Source: Patescibacteria group bacterium
GTDB lineage: Bacteria; Patescibacteriota; Minisyncoccia; Minisyncoccales; S141-161
NCBI GenBank assembly: GCA_015491015.1
Contig: WFWQ01000007.1
Location: forward strand, 1-10,645
DNA: 10,645 nucleotides
Reading direction: 5' to 3'
Below the pieces are notes generated by a model. It ran no database searches and had not been told where the DNA came from. It saw only the letters and a list, made by a program, of their open reading frames with translations. The stretch's first letter is position 1. Every line of letters begins with the position of its first letter. The position numbers and the translations under genes are program-made. Below, piece by piece: positions 5,158 through 10,645 of this stretch.

Positions 5158-6207
5158 TTACTTAGAGAATCCCTCAACTCCTTCCATAGAGCCTGGAGGG
5201 ACAAAACTACCTTCTTTCATAAAGAGATTCATTAACACATCTTGAAGAATCTTATCTAAATCAATATAGTTAGTGGGTTTATCTATTTCCGACAATTTTT
5301 GAGGAAATCTAAAGATTAGCTCTACTGAAAATTGTTCATTCTTTTTGTCATCTTTGAAAGATATTCTAATCAACTTTAAGATCTTATCTGTAGGAGAAAA
5401 TCCAACTTTGACAGCTTCCATCTTATTGAGTAAAGCTAAAGCATTTTTAAGATCTAATTTTTCTCCTTCAGTTAGGCTCTCAGCGTTCCCACAACCAAAC
5501 TCTTCTAACTTCTTTTGCAACTTTTCTACCTGAGCTACAAATTTTTCTGGATTTATTTCTACAGGATATATTACTACTTTTTCCCCTCTTATATCTTCAA
5601 CTTTTAATCTCTGCTTGAATTTCACTATTCCTTCGTCTAACTTTAAAAGTTCTTTGCTTTTTACCTGAATGTTTTTAATACACTCATCTATCTTCAAATT
5701 CTGATCCACTTGAGAAGCCAATAAAGTTTGATCTCCAGGAGTGATCCGGATCCATTGATTTAGGTACTTAGAAAATATTGGGGATAAAAAACTAAGATTC
5801 TCTCTCCCACTTCTTTGCAATCCTTCCATATTCAACTTAGAAACCTTCAAATAAACCTCCCCTTTACCTTCTTTTCCTTCAAAACTTCTCCCTTCTACTT
5901 CTAAATTAAAAGTTTCAAGGTCCTCATTGATTTGAAAGCTAAATAAGGATTTGGAAGCATTGTTTTTTCCTGGTAAAGTTTTCAACTTAATGTCTAAGTT
6001 AGTTTCACCTTTTGCTTGAACTAAAGCTTCGATCTCTAATTTTGCTCCGCTGGTAATCTTCTGGTAAAAGTTAGCTAAACCTTGATTTGGCAAGTTATCG
6101 CTAAGTACTCCTCCTTTCTTAGAAAAGCCAATAAAAATCCCAATGCCAATTAAGACTAATACACCTAAACCTATTGCTAAACCTAAAATTTGTTTTCCTC
6201 CAAACAT
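5158..6207 (-). CDS. Membrane-anchored extracytoplasmic protein of unknown function
   Basis: I do not recognise this 349-residue protein. Residues 7-28 are one clear hydrophobic helix (AIGLGVLVLIGIGIFIGF core) after a short MFGGKQ start and followed by KK, so a single-pass anchor with the bulk outside the membrane is likely. The rest is polar and reads as alternating beta strands with a central Lys/Glu-rich helical stretch (about 182-237). It has just two cysteines (C176 and C239) that could pair. The segment YLNQWIRITPGDQ and the lengths of strands loosely recall membrane-attached lipoproteins of the LppX/LolA-like kind, but there is no lipobox, so this is only a shape comparison. It is a single-gene unit: its own promoter lies upstream and a strong terminator downstream. 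No SD motif precedes the ATG. Confidence 0.75.
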   Translation of the reverse strand: MFGGKQILGLAIGLGVLVLIGIGIFIGFSKKGGVLSDNLPNQGLANFYQKITSGAKLEIEALVQAKGETNLDIKLKTLPGKNNASKSLFSFQINEDLETFNLEVEGRSFEGKEGKGEVYLKVSKLNMEGLQRSGRENLSFLSPIFSKYLNQWIRITPGDQTLLASQVDQNLKIDECIKNIQVKSKELLKLDEGIVKFKQRLKVEDIRGEKVVIYPVEINPEKFVAQVEKLQKKLEEFGCGNAESLTEGEKLDLKNALALLNKMEAVKVGFSPTDKILKLIRISFKDDKKNEQFSVELIFRFPQKLSEIDKPTNYIDLDKILQDVLMNLFMKEGSFVPPGSMEGVEGFSK

Positions 6208-6270
6208 AAGTTAAATTTCTAAGATTATTTGCTTTTTTAGCAGACCTTTAGTCAGTATCTTTTATGTTTT

Positions 6271-6299
6271 ATCTTAGCTTTCTTTCTTATCAAAAGCAA
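6271..6299 (-). promoter_or_regulatory. Probable promoter of the 5158-6207 gene
   Basis: On the minus strand TTGCTT (6299-6294), a 17-nt spacer and TAAGAT (6276-6271) fit a sigma70-type promoter. It would give a leader of about 55-60 nt before the ATG at 6207. The leader is A-rich with no clear SD site. Confidence 0.45.
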
Positions 6300-6304
6300 C
6301 CTTA

Positions 6305-6332
6305 TTGACTTTTAATCGCTAAGGTATAAAAT
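6305..6332 (+). promoter_or_regulatory. Probable promoter of tRNA-Asn
   Basis: TTGACT (6305-6310), a 16-nt spacer and TAAAAT (6327-6332) lie about 40 nt before the tRNA. An overlapping TATAAA at 6325 is an alternative -10. This promoter and the minus-strand one at 6271-6299 are back to back and diverge. Confidence 0.55.
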
Positions 6333-6374
6333 AATACTAATAACTAACCACTAACAACTAAAAACTCCCCAAAT

Positions 6375-6449
6375 TCCGGGGTAGCTCAGCGGTAGAGCGG
6401 GGCCCTGTTAAGGCCACGGTCGCAGGTTCGAATCCTGCCCCCGGAGCCA
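6375..6449 (+). tRNA. tRNA-Asn (anticodon GTT), CCA encoded
   Basis: All four arms can be drawn by hand: acceptor TCCGGGG/CCCCGGA, D stem GCTC/GAGC with a 7-nt loop, anticodon stem GGGCC/GGCCA (first pair mismatched) with loop CTGTTAA, 5-nt variable loop, and T stem GCAGG/CCTGC with loop TTCGAAT. The anticodon GTT is at 6407-6409, reading AAC/AAU codons. Discriminator G is followed by a genomic CCA (6447-6449). The tRNA marks the border between core genes and the accessory island, and tRNA 3' ends are common integration sites. Confidence 0.96.
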
Positions 6450-6460
6450 TTTTGATGGCT
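6445..6460. repeat. Perfect 6-bp inverted repeat spanning the tRNA 3' end
   Basis: AGCCAT-TTTG-ATGGCT begins in the tRNA acceptor end and includes CCA. No T-run follows, so it is a poor terminator. It could be part of an integrase attachment site or a processing hairpin; both readings are inference. Confidence 0.4.
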
Positions 6461-6689
6461 GTTCTAAACTCATTCAAGGTGCCCTTCCGACTCATCCATA
6501 CAAGAGAAAAGACAGAAACAACAAAACTTTCTCTTTCCTCTGTGTTAAATTCAAGATAATAAAGCCCATTCGAATCCACCTCTAAAAGGAATTTTACTTT
6601 TTGCTTTTCTTTTATATACAATATGTTATTATGTAATACTGGACGGCGATAAACTCTCGAATGCTCAAAAGAACTTAAAACTATGATTA
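6450..6689. other. Gene-poor stretch between tRNA-Asn and the HTH/HARP gene
   Basis: No gene is confidently supported here. The minus strand stays open across the whole stretch and on into the tRNA, and its protein-like part (residues such as KVKFLLEVDSNGLYYLEF) could be the tail of an older integrated gene, for example the lost 3' end of the recombinase found at 10078-10272. I cannot match it to a family. AT-rich sequence at 6601-6640 (TTTATA, then TAATAC at 17-nt spacing) could drive the plus-strand gene at 6690. Confidence 0.35.
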
Positions 6690-7094
6690 ATGGAAGGTTT
6701 TGTAGAAATAATGACCCTTGAGGGAACTGCAAAATATTTAAAAATAGGAAAATCTACTCTTTATAAAATGCCAATGAAAGGCAAAATCCCTGCTGTTAAA
6801 ATAGAACTTGGAAAGGATAAGAAGATTATAATTCGTGTTCCTTATGATCAGGAATTGATAAACAAAATAGAAACAATTCCTGGAAGGAGGTGGAATCCAA
6901 AAGGAAAACTTTTACAAAGTGAAGGAGGAAGGAATATGACTTCACCCAGAGTGATGTATATACGCAATACTGCGGATATCATTCCGAAATTAGAGCATAT
7001 CCGCAATGCAGATATAAAAGAGTTAGCAGAAATTCCGCACGCCGCCTTTAACACTAAAAGGAAAAAGGAGGTTGAAATATGGCAAAGAAACTAA
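6690..7094 (+). CDS. HTH (excisionase-type) plus HARP-like fragment, tail replaced by repeat sequence
   Basis: The 134-codon frame has three parts. Residues 8-40 (MTLEGTAKYLKIGKSTLYK...GKIPAVK) form a MerR/excisionase-type helix-turn-helix. Residues 46-74 (VPYDQELINKI..IPGRRWNPKGK) match the HARP-like module seen at the front of some phage-type tyrosine recombinases and SMARCAL1-type proteins. From about residue 82 the frame runs into the left inverted repeat and then into the start of the nuclease gene, ending 16 nt inside it. The family resemblance stops just after WNPKGK, so the gene looks like the truncated front of a longer protein, probably an integrase or its directionality factor. ATG at 6690 or 6711 could be the start. 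A strong AAGGAGG (6922-6928) sits 7 nt before the in-frame ATG at 6936, which could start a separate 52-residue peptide. A regulatory role for the R-M genes is possible. Confidence 0.55.
   Translation: MEGFVEIMTLEGTAKYLKIGKSTLYKMPMKGKIPAVKIELGKDKKIIIRVPYDQELINKIETIPGRRWNPKGKLLQSEGGRNMTSPRVMYIRNTADIIPKLEHIRNADIKELAEIPHAAFNTKRKKEVEIWQRN
6935..7046 (+). repeat. Left copy of inverted repeat flanking the R-M operon
   Basis: Read on plus, outside to inside, the blocks are TATGACTTCAC (6935-6945), GATG (6953-6956), TGCGGA (6971-6976), CATATCCGC (6996-7004), GTTAGCAGA (7022-7030) and TTCCGCACGCCGCC (7033-7046). The same blocks occur in the same order on the minus strand at 9941-10075. The last block matches at 13 of 14 positions, two others at 9 of 9. 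Spacers differ in length. G+C is about 43 percent by hand count. Confidence 0.72.
7065..7071 (+). promoter_or_regulatory. Strong Shine-Dalgarno site of the restriction endonuclease gene
   Basis: AAGGAGG lies 7 nt before the ATG at 7079 and fixes the start. The core genes in the window lack such sites, so this is a mark of different ancestry. Confidence 0.8.
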
Positions 7095-7846
7095 CACAAA
7101 TAGAAATAGAAAAATTGGAATTTGTGCATTTTGAGAGAATAAGATATTATTTCTTAGATAACCTACAAGACATATTAAAAGGGTTGCATTCTAGACTAGA
7201 AATAAAAAATGATTGGTATCCGCAATTTATCTCAACCAAAAGTAATGTAGCCTCTGATTTAGAAATGGGAGCAGAAAGAATTTTTCACTATGTTTTTTCT
7301 CAAGGTATGAAGCATCCAAATTCATCTCCTATAGGTGCCGATTTAATGTATGAGACTTTTGATTCGTTTATACACATAGATATCAAAACTATTTCGGAGT
7401 CGAATTGGGGAGATTATAAAGGCAAAATAGCAGTCCAACCTAACCAAACATCCTATCCTTTATCAAAATACGGGTTATCGCCTAATCTACCTACATATTA
7501 CTCTAAAATTTTTGAAAAACACGGGAAAAAATACAATAAACCAACACTTACGTACTTTATTTATGCTTTGCATAAACACGCATCAAAGGAGATATATAGT
7601 ATGCTGCTTGTTTGTATGCCTAATGGTGAACTGTATAATGTATATGGAGATAAAATATTACATGCTGGTAAAACGAAAAATAGCGTAAGATATGCTTTTA
7701 AAGAAGAACCAAGATTTGTCTTACTTTCCAGTGAAAGAGAAGTGTTTAGAGTAGAATTTTTAATTAAAAGTAAAAATTATACGCAAAGGGAATTAATTGG
7801 GGTACCCGAAGAAAAACATAAAATACCTGTGTGGGTAGAAATATGA
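7079..7846 (+). CDS. Type II restriction endonuclease, PD-(D/E)xK fold
   Basis: This 255-residue protein is best read as the DNA-cutting partner of the methyltransferase that follows. A PD-(D/E)xK core can be seen: E66 in the helix GAERIFHYVF, D88 in IGADL, then D101 and K103 in HIDIKT. QPNQTSY (120-126) after it is a polar strand often found at this place in type II enzymes. The length is usual for a homodimeric type II nuclease. I cannot name the subfamily or the recognition site. The last four bases overlap the methyltransferase start (ATGA), so the two are translationally coupled with the nuclease first, an order that usually needs some delay or control of nuclease expression. No C-protein gene is seen; the truncated HTH gene upstream is the only candidate. 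A TATAAA at 7013-7018 in the left repeat could be a -10 element, but no good -35 pairs with it. Confidence 0.8.
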   Translation: MAKKLTQIEIEKLEFVHFERIRYYFLDNLQDILKGLHSRLEIKNDWYPQFISTKSNVASDLEMGAERIFHYVFSQGMKHPNSSPIGADLMYETFDSFIHIDIKTISESNWGDYKGKIAVQPNQTSYPLSKYGLSPNLPTYYSKIFEKHGKKYNKPTLTYFIYALHKHASKEIYSMLLVCMPNGELYNVYGDKILHAGKTKNSVRYAFKEEPRFVLLSSEREVFRVEFLIKSKNYTQRELIGVPEEKHKIPVWVEI

Positions 7847-9933
7847 AAAAAGATATTTTAATATTCGGGGATGTATATGCTGGTTTGGAATACCTTGATG
7901 ATAATTCAATCGCTGTTACTATTACATCCCCTCCTTACTGGAAACAAAGAGATTATAAATTCAAAAGTCAGATTGGGCAGGAAAAAACACCTGAGGAATA
8001 TATTGGTAGGCTAGTAAAAATATATAATAAACTCCGCCAAAAGCTTAGAGAAGATGGTATTTTTTTTCTAAATGTTGGGGATAAATATCTAAACCAATAT
8101 GGAAAATCTCATCTTTTACAAATTCCATATAGATTGGCATACCATATGGTAAAAGATGGTTGGTATTTAGAAGACATAATCATTTGGTATAAACCAAATC
8201 ACATGCCATCTTCGGTTAAAGACAGATTTACAAATACTTATGAACCAATACTTGTCTTTGCAAAAAGTAAAAATAATATTTATCAAAATAAATATCCAAA
8301 GGTAGTAGAAATACCTTTGCAACAGACCCCATGGAAACACACAGCGGTATATCCTGAAAAATTAGTATGGGAAATGTTAGAACGTGTAGAATTAAAAAAT
8401 GGAGATTTAATATTAGATCCTTTTGCAGGGACTGGAACGACTGCTGTAGTTGTGAATAAAATAAGGAATAGTCTCTACGCTAAAAAGATTTATTCAATTA
8501 TGATTGAAAAAGGATATGAATTTGTAGATATAATCAAGGAGAGAGCAAAAATAAAAGAAGTTATCAAGGTTAAGGATATTAGTTATGAGTGGGGACCTGT
8601 TGAGGAAACTGATTTATCAATGGATATAGAGCCTAAGCCTATACTCAAAGATAAACATGGAGAGGTTTATATTGCTAAAGATCAAAGAGAATTTTTATCC
8701 GCATTAAAAGGAATTACAATGGAGGAATTTAAGAAATTTCATAGAGAAGATGCACTTTACTTTTTTGGAGTAAAGGAATGGGATTTAAACTCATTGTATT
8801 ATGCTCATACGATATATCAATATGGATATGTTCTGAGGAATATGCTGATCGTGTCCGATGGAAACAGCTGGTATCCCATTTTCATGTTTGCACGAGATAG
8901 CACACGAGTTGCATATAAATTCTATCTTGATAGGGTTAGGATAAAACCAAAAACAAAAGAAAAAATAGAGTGGCGAGAAGAAGAATTTATTGGTATGAAA
9001 GTAAGAGACATTTCAGGGAAAGAATCGATAGAAGGCTACATAGTAAAAGTTTTAGAGAAATATGATGATGGCTTTCCAAAGCTGGTGGTAGTTCGATGGG
9101 ACGGAAAGGCATCAATAGAATTTGTTATTCATCCTAAGAAAGATGAGATTTTGATGGAGGGTGTAAAATTCTTTTGTCCGAAATGTTATTCTAAGTTAAC
9201 AGAGCCTTATGACCCAATAGGAGACAACCTATGCCCTTCTTGTGGTCAAAAATTGTGGATAAATTTGGAAACTATTCCTATCATACAGGAACCTCAAGAA
9301 ATATCTGAAATCGCAAAGGAATTAGAAAACAATGAATATTCCATAGGTCAGATTTTAAACATCAAAGACTTAAAAATAAAAAAGGTTTCATCATCAAGTA
9401 AATTTTCATCTTTAGAAAGGATTAACTGGGGAGCATCCCCTGGAGCAAGAAAACTTATGCTTGGTGAATATTTTACAAAAATGCGTCTTTACAGAATAGA
9501 CCAGTCTCTTGTCGCACAATATTTAACTCTATTGAGAAAATCTAAGAATATGGGTATTAAAGATGTGATAAATAAACTTCCAAAAGAATATCATCATACT
9601 GTTGGTCATTGGTTTAGAAAAGATTTTGGCGGGTCTATTCCAATACCTCAAGATGTTGAATTAATAAAAGCCATTTTTGATGTTCAAGATGGATTATTGG
9701 GAATATTAAAAAGAACAGCTTTAAAGTTCCAAACTGTTAAAGCTTCAATTAAAGGTAAGAATCCGGGAGATTATATTAAAAACAAAAACGACAAGGATAT
9801 AATTAAATTTCTTAGGTTATTGTATATTCCGTCAAAAGAATATATAACCATGTTTGCTCAAATGAAAAAATCGAAAAATAAAAACGTTGCAAATAAAAAC
9901 GAAATCATAATTGGAGAGATGAAACATGATTAA
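7843..9933 (+). CDS. DNA methyltransferase (N4-cytosine or N6-adenine, TSPPY class) with zinc ribbon and C-terminal HTH-like module
   Basis: The 696-residue protein would methylate the target site of the paired nuclease and so protect the host. Motif IV TSPPYW is at residues 28-33 and the AdoMet-binding motif I DPFAGTGTT at 192-200, the permuted beta-class order; TSPPY leans toward N4-cytosine but does not settle it. The catalytic part ends near 240, so about 450 residues are extra: an unrecognised region (250-440), a zinc ribbon CPKC...CPSC (C445, C448, C464, C467), and a tail with RINWGASPGARK (526-537) and HHTVGHWFRKDFGGSIPIP (584-602), a pattern I know from other stand-alone methyltransferases and probably a recognition module. 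I chose ATG 7843, giving the ATGA overlap, over the in-frame GTG at 7831. No T-tailed terminator follows; the gene ends 7 nt before the right repeat. Confidence 0.88.
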   Translation: MKKDILIFGDVYAGLEYLDDNSIAVTITSPPYWKQRDYKFKSQIGQEKTPEEYIGRLVKIYNKLRQKLREDGIFFLNVGDKYLNQYGKSHLLQIPYRLAYHMVKDGWYLEDIIIWYKPNHMPSSVKDRFTNTYEPILVFAKSKNNIYQNKYPKVVEIPLQQTPWKHTAVYPEKLVWEMLERVELKNGDLILDPFAGTGTTAVVVNKIRNSLYAKKIYSIMIEKGYEFVDIIKERAKIKEVIKVKDISYEWGPVEETDLSMDIEPKPILKDKHGEVYIAKDQREFLSALKGITMEEFKKFHREDALYFFGVKEWDLNSLYYAHTIYQYGYVLRNMLIVSDGNSWYPIFMFARDSTRVAYKFYLDRVRIKPKTKEKIEWREEEFIGMKVRDISGKESIEGYIVKVLEKYDDGFPKLVVVRWDGKASIEFVIHPKKDEILMEGVKFFCPKCYSKLTEPYDPIGDNLCPSCGQKLWINLETIPIIQEPQEISEIAKELENNEYSIGQILNIKDLKIKKVSSSSKFSSLERINWGASPGARKLMLGEYFTKMRLYRIDQSLVAQYLTLLRKSKNMGIKDVINKLPKEYHHTVGHWFRKDFGGSIPIPQDVELIKAIFDVQDGLLGILKRTALKFQTVKASIKGKNPGDYIKNKNDKDIIKFLRLLYIPSKEYITMFAQMKKSKNKNVANKNEIIIGEMKHD

Positions 9934-9940
9934 CAATTTC

Positions 9941-10075
9941 GGCGGCGTCCGGAACTCTTCGCCTGCTTTCGCAGGCTCACCCTTCGGGTCTGCTAACAAG
10001 CGGATATGTTGTTCGCTTCGCTCACCCAAACCCTTACGGGCTCCGCATACCCGCATCCCGTTAAGTGAAATAATA
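9941..10075 (-). repeat. Right copy of inverted repeat, GC-rich and hairpin-rich
   Basis: Read on minus, outside to inside, the blocks are TATTATTTCAC (10075-10065), GATG (10057-10054), TGCGGA (10047-10042), CATATCCGC (10008-10000), GTTAGCAGA (9997-9989) and TTCCGGACGCCGCC (9954-9941), matching 6935-7046 in order. G+C is about 56 percent by hand count, far above the surroundings. Extra hairpins sit in the spacers: GCCTGC-TTTC-GCAGGC (9961-9976), ACCC-TTC-GGGT (9979-9989) and CCC-TTAC-GGG (10031-10040). A longer stem pairs GCGGATATG (10000-10008) with CATACCCGC (10046-10054) and TAAC with GTTA at its base. It behaves as non-coding sequence: the shared blocks are not in one reading frame between the copies. 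Confidence 0.75.
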
Positions 10076-10077
10076 GC

Positions 10078-10272
10078 GGCGGAGAAGCCCGCATCTTCAT
10101 AAATACCAAAAAGTTCCCAACCCTCAAACTTTCGGCTTTTTATAAAATTCAAAATATGCTCTTTCTGGGATTCAAGGGAACTATGATCCTTTTCAGCCTG
10201 ATTTTCAGTTGATACTCTTGTATAGACCGCGCACCTCAAAACTTCCGTTTTCTTATTCTTTTTCATCTTCAT
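10078..10272 (-). pseudogene. Large serine recombinase, N-terminal 65 residues only
   Basis: From ATG 10272 (or 10266) the protein shows the start of a resolvase-type catalytic domain: VYTRVSTENQ with the nucleophile serine at residue 21, then SSLESQKEHI and GIYEDAGFSA. Family members continue with more of the catalytic domain and several hundred residues of DNA-binding and coiled-coil sequence; here the resemblance stops at A65 and the frame enters the right repeat and then the antisense of the methyltransferase. It therefore lacks most of the enzyme and should be inactive. Its start overlaps the PIN gene stop by 20 nt, suggesting the two were once cotranscribed. The enzyme class integrates mobile DNA, often at tRNA genes, so the fragment is probably a relic of an element that used the nearby tRNA-Asn. 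Confidence 0.82.
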
Positions 10273-10639
10273 AAAGTTTTACGCCTTTGATCTTTTTAAC
10301 TTCTTTATTTTTAGTCAAGATTTTTAAGTTTTTCCTTTTGCTTAAAGCACAAAGTAAACCTAACTCAAGGGATAGTCCCTTAACCTCAAAAACAAGTTTA
10401 CTTGCTTTTATCCAGTCTTCTTTTTCTATTTCTACATAAGGTAAGGCAAGAAAACCTTTTAAAAGTTTCTCAAAGATTTCTTTGTCTTTAACATCACTGA
10501 GAACCTTGGCAATAGTGTATCCCGTAACCACTATATTGTTCTCCTTCAATAAAGTTTCTAAGATCATCGTTTCATTTGTATGTTTTCCCTCAAAATAATC
10601 TTTCCAAGTTTTTATATCAGTTAGTATCATCTTATTCAT
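10253..10639 (-). CDS. Degenerate PIN-domain (VapC-like) protein
   Basis: This 128-residue protein has the length and layout of a VapC-type toxin nuclease: ILTDIKTWKDYFEGK at the front, LPYVEIEKEDWIKASKLVFEVKGLSLELGLL in the middle and LKILTKNKEV near the end. PIN nucleases need about four acidic residues to hold metal. Here D8 is kept, but the usual E in the second motif looks like K45 (TIAKVL), the D of the third motif looks like L93, and the D of the T-x-D motif is N111. By this alignment the catalytic site is lost, so it may be a non-cutting binding protein or a decaying toxin. The start ATGA at 10639-10636 could overlap the stop of an unseen upstream antitoxin gene beyond the window. Alternative start at 10630. 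Confidence 0.62.
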   Translation of the reverse strand: MNKMILTDIKTWKDYFEGKHTNETMILETLLKENNIVVTGYTIAKVLSDVKDKEIFEKLLKGFLALPYVEIEKEDWIKASKLVFEVKGLSLELGLLCALSKRKNLKILTKNKEVKKIKGVKLYEDEKE

Positions 10640-10645
10640 TTCCCG

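Follow-up and report, generated by a model that had tools for sequence, protein, structure and literature searches.

A Type II restriction–modification operon of a small-genome Patescibacteria bacterium as a probable integron gene cassette

The locus and its flanking blocks

The stretch analysed here, which we call the window, is the entire 10,645 bp contig C7 (WFWQ01000007.1) of a Patescibacteria group bacterium, whose assembled genome amounts to 456,593 bp in 74 contigs and is 87% complete. It carries a Type II restriction–modification (R-M) operon preceded by the remnant of a tyrosine recombinase gene and bracketed by two elements of partly similar sequence, the features of which are given in Table 1. 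As set out below, the operon is very probably a single gene cassette (7023-10060), the first one at attI in an integron that has since decayed.

Both R-M genes are open. The methyltransferase covers positions 1-666 of the 668 in profile PDLC03303, and the nuclease matches the Type II restriction endonuclease profile PDLC03522 at 40 bits, with its best homologues covering 100%, which places the pair among Type II R-M systems. Relatives of the nuclease reach 94% identity, and include proteins named as coming from a Thermoplasmata archaeon (85%) and from Thermodesulfobacterium sp. TA1 (83%). More distant nuclease relatives are found on two plasmids, convergent with methyltransferase genes, free of the flanks seen here and lacking attC sites by the covariance model R1 described below, so that nucleases of this family also occur independently of integrons.

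A preliminary description of the window had reported six blocks surrounding the operon in inverted order with only the nuclease and methyltransferase between them, and this is what we find. On the plus strand at the left lie TTCAC (6941-6945), GATG 7 nt further on, TGCGGA, CATATCCGC (6996-7004), GTTAGCAGA (7022-7030) and TTCCGCACGCCGCC (7033-7046), and the same order is seen on the minus strand of 10075-9941, where the last block reads TTCCGGACGCCGCC (13/14); the two R-M open reading frames (ORFs) are the sole content. Though the blocks are real, chance is less firmly excluded than had been claimed. When the left and right regions are compared by gapped local alignment, 90 of 2000 shuffled pairs (4.5%) do as well; their collinear-block score is matched in 1 of 6000 Markov tiles and in 3 of 2101 real tiles, the latter three coming from loci fetched by a two-block pattern that two of them contain. 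The further proposal, that the two sides are copies of one undescribed repeat, did not survive: the left side fails the covariance model of the family, and the pair is better described as an attC site on the right and, on the left, an attI-like site with the 5' end of the cassette.

The right element and the cassette ends

To judge from its sequence and from the family it belongs to, the right element (9941-10066) is most likely an integron attC site. It lies 3' of the genes in cassette orientation, its outer arm 8 nt and its R'' box 56 nt past the methyltransferase stop, the R''-L''-L'-R' order runs in the direction of the genes, and the R' box GTTAAGT conforms to GTTRRRY, the R'' box TGCTAAC departing from strict RYYYAAC. 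Scanning for the pattern CATATCCGC...GTTAGCAGA gave 13 loci, one of which is a true relative: a Diapherotrites archaeon metagenome-assembled genome (MAG; L008) with three same-strand elements and genes between them, which holds the top-scoring relative of the window attC. The other 12 were judged by eye to have nothing in common beyond the pattern. A DNA search of 196 relatives added one locus (L017, in G037), and weak matches in G151 and G134 and a match in G418 were taken as chance from their surroundings.

The right element and four relatives, five sequences in all, served to build a covariance model (R1). In the window it finds the right copy at 114 bits and nothing on the left at E≤10, where even with filters off the best score over 301 bases is 5.5 bits. 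The rest of the bacterium's own genome holds only a chance match of 10 bits, whereas relatives hold many copies: at E≤0.01 per genome, matches occur in 45 of 379 genomes of the same phylum (this one included) and in 5 of 19 of the Diapherotrites phylum, the E-values being rough and about 4 of the 379 being within reach of chance. The 73 attC-family sites (71 distinct) aligned with R1 read, in gene direction, roughly nnnTAAC - stem - loop - stem - CG^TTAnnnGAAAT. The strict RYYYAAC is present in 20 of 73 and GTTRRRY in 14 of 54, with AAC and GTT nearly invariant. In this alignment, which is fitted to the model, 96.2% of pair cells hold standard pairs, and stem covariation is 0.556 compared to 0.129 in shuffles (0/500 as high), above all slid controls. 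Each of 18 multi-site loci has all its sites on one strand. Of the 73 sites, 63 have their nearest 5' ORF pointing toward them, 6 have it pointing away and 4 have no ORF within 400 nt; together this is how gene-cassette arrays are laid out.

Two of the six blocks, GTTAGCAGA and TTCCG-N-ACGCCGCC, are the terminal inverted repeats of the cassette and form two halves of one long attC hairpin. This follows from three observations: GTTAGCAGA at the cassette start is the exact complement of the cassette's own R'' box TCTGCTAAC (9/9 bases), TTCCGCACGCCGCC pairs over 13 of 14 positions with the attC tail, and the joined ends fold well. The extended fold of the joined ends has an energy of -39.5 kcal/mol (z -5.96; 0/300 shuffles as good), compared to -24.4 kcal/mol (z -0.92) for the integrated site, and the joined core by itself gives z -2.62.

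The same arrangement is seen in relatives. R'' contains a variable trinucleotide, and among 37 cassettes taken from seven array loci it corresponds at 3/3 positions to the cassette's own 5' end in 24 and to the start of the next cassette in 2; the fold of the bottom strand is better with the cassette's own end in 30 cases and poorer in 5. Outer arms score at least 11 in 19 of 30 own pairs, compared to 4 of 148 mismatched pairs from the same genome and 5 of 782 from other genomes, and at least 12 in 16 of 30, compared to 2 of 148 and 2 of 782; these thresholds were chosen after a first look, and the yardstick is mismatched pairs, not a canonical integron. Perfect outer arms extend up to 21 bp. 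When the tail is made part of the fold, the circular form is the more stable one for 27 of 28 cassettes, including that of the window. Most likely, then, the window belongs to a lineage in which many cassettes carry long terminal inverted repeats.

As to what such arrays carry, ten larger ORFs were scanned and some are defence-like, with HNH nucleases and a Fic protein (SoFic, 363 bits) among L085:5324-6469(-), L083:7771-8682(+) and L082:6191-7258(-). No confirmed relative was found in viral contigs scanned for the repeat, methyltransferase, nuclease, integrase and attI peptide, in phages scanned for nuclease and integrase, or in plasmids scanned for both repeats. A phage match to the right element spans 25 bases at E 0.2, and occurrences of a short attI pattern in viral contigs, among the matches listed, were taken as chance.

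The left element and the recombinases of related arrays

The left element most likely combines an attI-like site, with a predicted crossover at G7022^T7023, and the 5' end of the cassette. The window reads ATATAAAAGAG^TTAGCAGAAAT at 7012-7033, and TTCGTATAnAAACGAG^TTAnnnGAAAT or a near variant stands directly upstream of the recombinase in five related loci (L028, L080, L083, L085 and L075). A 27-nt motif from ten sites, these five together with L035, L040, L047, L052 and L086, has its best score in the window at 7007-7033 (19.05; next best 6.7). Elsewhere, over 602,950 positions of the other loci (training loci and window copies removed), a score as high is reached once, just upstream of the L082 recombinase.

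The peptide encoded from 6936 onward gives a further comparison. Among about 5.8 billion proteins, P0142 is its sole relative at E≤10, identical at 28 of 44 residues. Over the predicted crossover P0142 has E-L-S-E-I where the window has E-L-A-E-I, and the two diverge immediately afterwards, as would be expected, at the protein level, of two different cassettes with a common start. In another protein, P0030, an integrase remnant is joined to a similar peptide (4/5000 shuffles as good), a case chosen by eye from 60 matches. The idea that the left repeat is leftover integrase coding sequence was dropped, the profile test being unsupportive (241/3000 shuffles as good).

Ten relatives of the remnant upstream of this site were scanned; nine match NF040815 (site-specific tyrosine recombinase/integron integrase) and seven match TIGR02249. 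A search of 247 genomes of the order with the integrase fragment P0027 gave three matches, one of them, in G049, with a tyrosine recombinase beside R1 sites. Several metagenomic HTH_17-integrase relatives (P0013, P0015, P0016, P0018, P0022, P0024, P0025, P0026 and P0030) resemble internal deletions, with the N-terminus fused to a C-terminal piece, and may be frequent decay or assembly artefacts.

Seventeen regions were fetched by their attC sites alone (L081-L087 and L209-L218), and eight of them contain a recombinase of one family (L082, L083, L085, L211, L212, L214, L217 and L218). No such recombinase is seen in the available stretch of the other nine, apart from a distant one in L087 (31 bits); in L081, L084 and L216 the contig ends on the side where it would sit. 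Together with those of L080 and L028 this makes ten recombinases, each at the proximal end of its array and in divergent orientation, and these ten loci appear to be integron layouts in small-genome bacteria of the window's phylum. For L080, L082, L083 and L085, NF040815 scores 213-242 bits, its cut-off of 220 being reached by L080 only, and TIGR02249 scores 188-226 bits, all under its cut-off of 265. That second cut-off was exceeded in none of the 379 genomes; a TIGR02249 search at E≤1e-40, with matches in 6 of 379, missed array recombinases that were found later, so it gives no evidence of absence.

The best solved relative of the L080 protein is IntI4 of V. cholerae (2a3v), and the alignment, which is in two pieces, omits chain residues 204-240, so that the L080 recombinase is without the IntI-specific insertion. 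The identical gap is seen in L082, L083 and L085, and for five further array recombinases the alignment lengths leave no room for the insertion. Another locus, L088:2393-3304 (G336), encodes an IntI-like integrase that does have an insertion at this gap (TIGR02249 240 bits, under cut-off), with no R1 site at E≤0.1 within the surrounding 9 kb.

Table 1. Features of the window; the assignment of the cassette, attI-like and attC parts is predicted.
Feature	Position	Strand	Remarks
HTH_17 and tyrosine recombinase N-terminal remnant (integron-integrase/XerA-like)	6690..6911	+	homology ends at codon 74
attI-like primary insertion site	6936..7022	+	crossover G7022^T7023; motif from 10 other sites; P0142 upstream peptide
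Gene cassette, 3,038 bp	7023..10060	+	5' end TTAGCAGAAAT, restriction and methyltransferase genes, attC
Cassette's 5' half of attC R box, G + TTAGCAGA	7022..7030	+	exact complement of R'' 9989-9997
Outer arm O' of extended attC hairpin	7033..7046	+	terminal inverted repeat, 13/14 with 9941-9954
Type II restriction endonuclease	7079..7846	+	PF27366 in homologues; PADLOC REase_II
Type II DNA methyltransferase	7843..9933	+	full length vs PDLC03303, 840 bits
Outer arm O'' of extended attC hairpin	9941..9954	+	pairs with O'
Hairpin-bearing attC tail	9955..9988	+	common to closest relatives
attC core	9989..10066	+	R'' 9989-9997, L'' 10000-10008, loop, L' 10046-10054, R' 10060-10066; model alignment
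Start of next cassette or of former target	10061..10081	+	TTAAGTGAAAT fits cassette-start consensus
Serine recombinase N-terminus	10082..10272	-	weak CcrB-like match; cut off about where attC-related DNA starts; 3' part not seen in window

Interpretation, alternatives and known systems

With an attC site on the right and an attI-like site on the left, the nuclease and methyltransferase together would form one cassette, beside an integrase remnant. In known integrons, the cassette is a circle whose attC, single-stranded and folded, is recombined by the integrase with attI, the junction lying between G and TT. The same would happen here, with an integrase supplied in trans joining the attC of the circular R-M cassette to the attI-like site. 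The predicted attC hairpin is unusually long, since beyond the R boxes complementary arms lie on the 5' end and on the 3' tail of the cassette, and these would meet only in the excised circle; the circle should therefore be the better substrate for insertion and the integrated form less prone to leave. The earlier proposal of a mobile R-M cassette with terminal inverted repeats, lacking a transposase of its own and moved by an enzyme coded elsewhere, was thus right as to kind, two of the six blocks being such repeats, though the mover we propose is an integron integrase, part of a known kind of system and not of an undescribed repeat pair. Judged by the refuting conditions set in that earlier description, the outcome is mixed: this genome has no second copy apart from the 10-bit chance match, relatives have many, and distant nuclease homologues on two plasmids are without the flanks.

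On balance we lean towards a broader view, in which Patescibacteria would have an integron lineage of their own, with a small integrase that has no IntI-specific insertion, attI sites reading AAACGAG^TTAnnnGAAAT, and terminal inverted repeats on cassettes whose attC hairpin is complete only in the circle, which would make capture efficient and loss rare. Whole R-M operons would by this route reach ultra-small genomes, and attC families would be common to these bacteria and DPANN archaea.

Several observations weigh against the cassette interpretation or some part of it. The attI-like site scores 19 compared to 29.8-39.6 in the ten training sites, which would make it a divergent member; five of those ten had been chosen by score alone, using the motif of the first four, with no recombinase seen beside them, and a shorter 19-nt upstream motif scored another position in the window (8698) higher. 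No intact integron integrase was found in the 87% complete genome, whose single Phage_integrase match is closest to XerC/D models, and the remnant is oriented with the cassette while the array recombinases of relatives are divergent. At the right, the R'' box TGCTAAC does not strictly fit RYYYAAC, folding of the attC in its integrated form does not surpass that of shuffled sequences (z -0.46, -1.34, -1.29 and -0.92), and the window's outer arms score 11, not 12. The rule that R'' corresponds to its own cassette end holds at 3/3 in only 4 of 12 cassettes of a second set (next cassette 0/12), where outer arms score at least 12 in 5 of 12 own pairs (controls 0/14 and 0/118) and 9 of 12 cassettes fold better as circles; 15 of the 38 sites in this set were dropped for want of a clear stem, so some of its cassettes may span a missed site. 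Two Diapherotrites cassettes have neither the own-end rule nor outer arms. Finally, TTCAC, GATG, TGCGGA and CATATCCGC sit in the attI-like part, where they may resemble attC boxes through integrase-binding boxes common to both kinds of site, or by coincidence.

These points bear differently on the alternatives. The low score of the left site would fit a cassette that had entered at a chance GTT, as a secondary site, or had come to lie beside the left sequence by rearrangement, so that the left is not attI at all, and the remnant's same-direction layout points the same way. Against this, the left site has the top motif score in the window, and the one position elsewhere that scores as high lies immediately 5' of a recombinase; P0142 joins the same upstream peptide to another continuation; and in P0030, subject to its selection by eye, a similar peptide follows an integrase remnant. 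We regard this alternative as improbable. The inverted order of the six blocks and the complementarity of the cassette ends are also what one would see in a non-autonomous transposon, with terminal inverted repeats around the R-M operon that are cut and pasted in trans by a transposase. However, two copies of one repeat should both match the family model, and the left one does not; in the relatives each gene of an array has its own site and the sites share a strand, with no inverted pairs; and the recombinase next to the arrays is a tyrosine recombinase, making a transposon very unlikely. We give hardly any credence to a reading in which the left likeness is chance and the right element an ordinary repeat rich in hairpins, or a terminator: it would account for the shuffles that equal the gapped alignment and for the poor fold of the right element as it stands, but not for the family-model matches, the covariation, the arrays, the attI motif and the fold of the joined ends. 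An integron cassette at attI is the reading we retain.

Super-integrons are reported to carry R-M systems, with XbaI and HphI as examples, and the window resembles them in having a complete R-M system as cassette cargo, while differing in host, attC family and attI. Integrons of archaea are likewise known already: those described by Ghaly et al. 2022 (PMC9668308) have an IntI with the IntI-specific extra domain. Arrays of attC in DPANN and other archaea are a point of likeness, the top relative of the window attC being in the Diapherotrites MAG, but the array recombinases examined here are without that domain; the available main text of that paper makes no mention of Diapherotrites or of the candidate phyla radiation. 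Bacterial gene cassettes and clusters of attC sites lacking integron integrases (CALINs), as covered in the available text of IntegronFinder 2.0 (PMC9024848), which has no mention of Patescibacteria, share with our sites an attC 3' of the gene, same-strand arrays, the G^TT crossover and the R''-L''-L'-R' hairpin. With the window's relatives they further have in common that attI and a divergently oriented integrase stand at the proximal end. The window differs in having a lone cassette with an integrase remnant, and in complementary arms that continue well past the R boxes. Self-pairing of attC beyond the 7-nt R boxes, to 9-11 consecutive nt in total, is given in Bouvier et al. 2009 (PMC2727003), and in general terms in PMC8352920. 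Our sites are alike in pairing past the boxes but differ in having further arms, which lie beyond an internal loop or a hairpin-bearing tail and measure up to 21 bp. Among the matches listed for integrons in Patescibacteria, Parcubacteria or the candidate phyla radiation, drawn from sources with few subscription journals and no preprints, none reports integrons, or arrays of this kind, from these groups.

If the interpretation is right, it offers a specific way for an entire R-M system to enter a bacterium with a tiny genome, one belonging to the widespread integron-like arrays seen in 45 of 379 sampled genomes of the phylum. The cassette-terminal repeats raise a question for integrons as a whole, namely whether recombination is tilted toward capture over loss when the attC is complete only in the circle. 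Should the array recombinases act on these sites, the IntI-specific insertion, treated as a mark of integron integrases, would be dispensable.

Other features of the window lie outside the proposed cassette. An Rfam scan of 6200-10645 gave only a tRNA and three matches below their cut-offs. A tRNA-Asn(GTT) gene at 6375-6449 (+), upstream of the integrase remnant, is a possible older integration site. To the right, a continuation of the integrase frame was considered and dropped because the same DNA codes, in antisense, for the serine recombinase N-terminus of Table 1. A PIN/VapC-like gene (10253-10639, minus strand; NF047959 38 bits, under cut-off) lies at the end of the contig.

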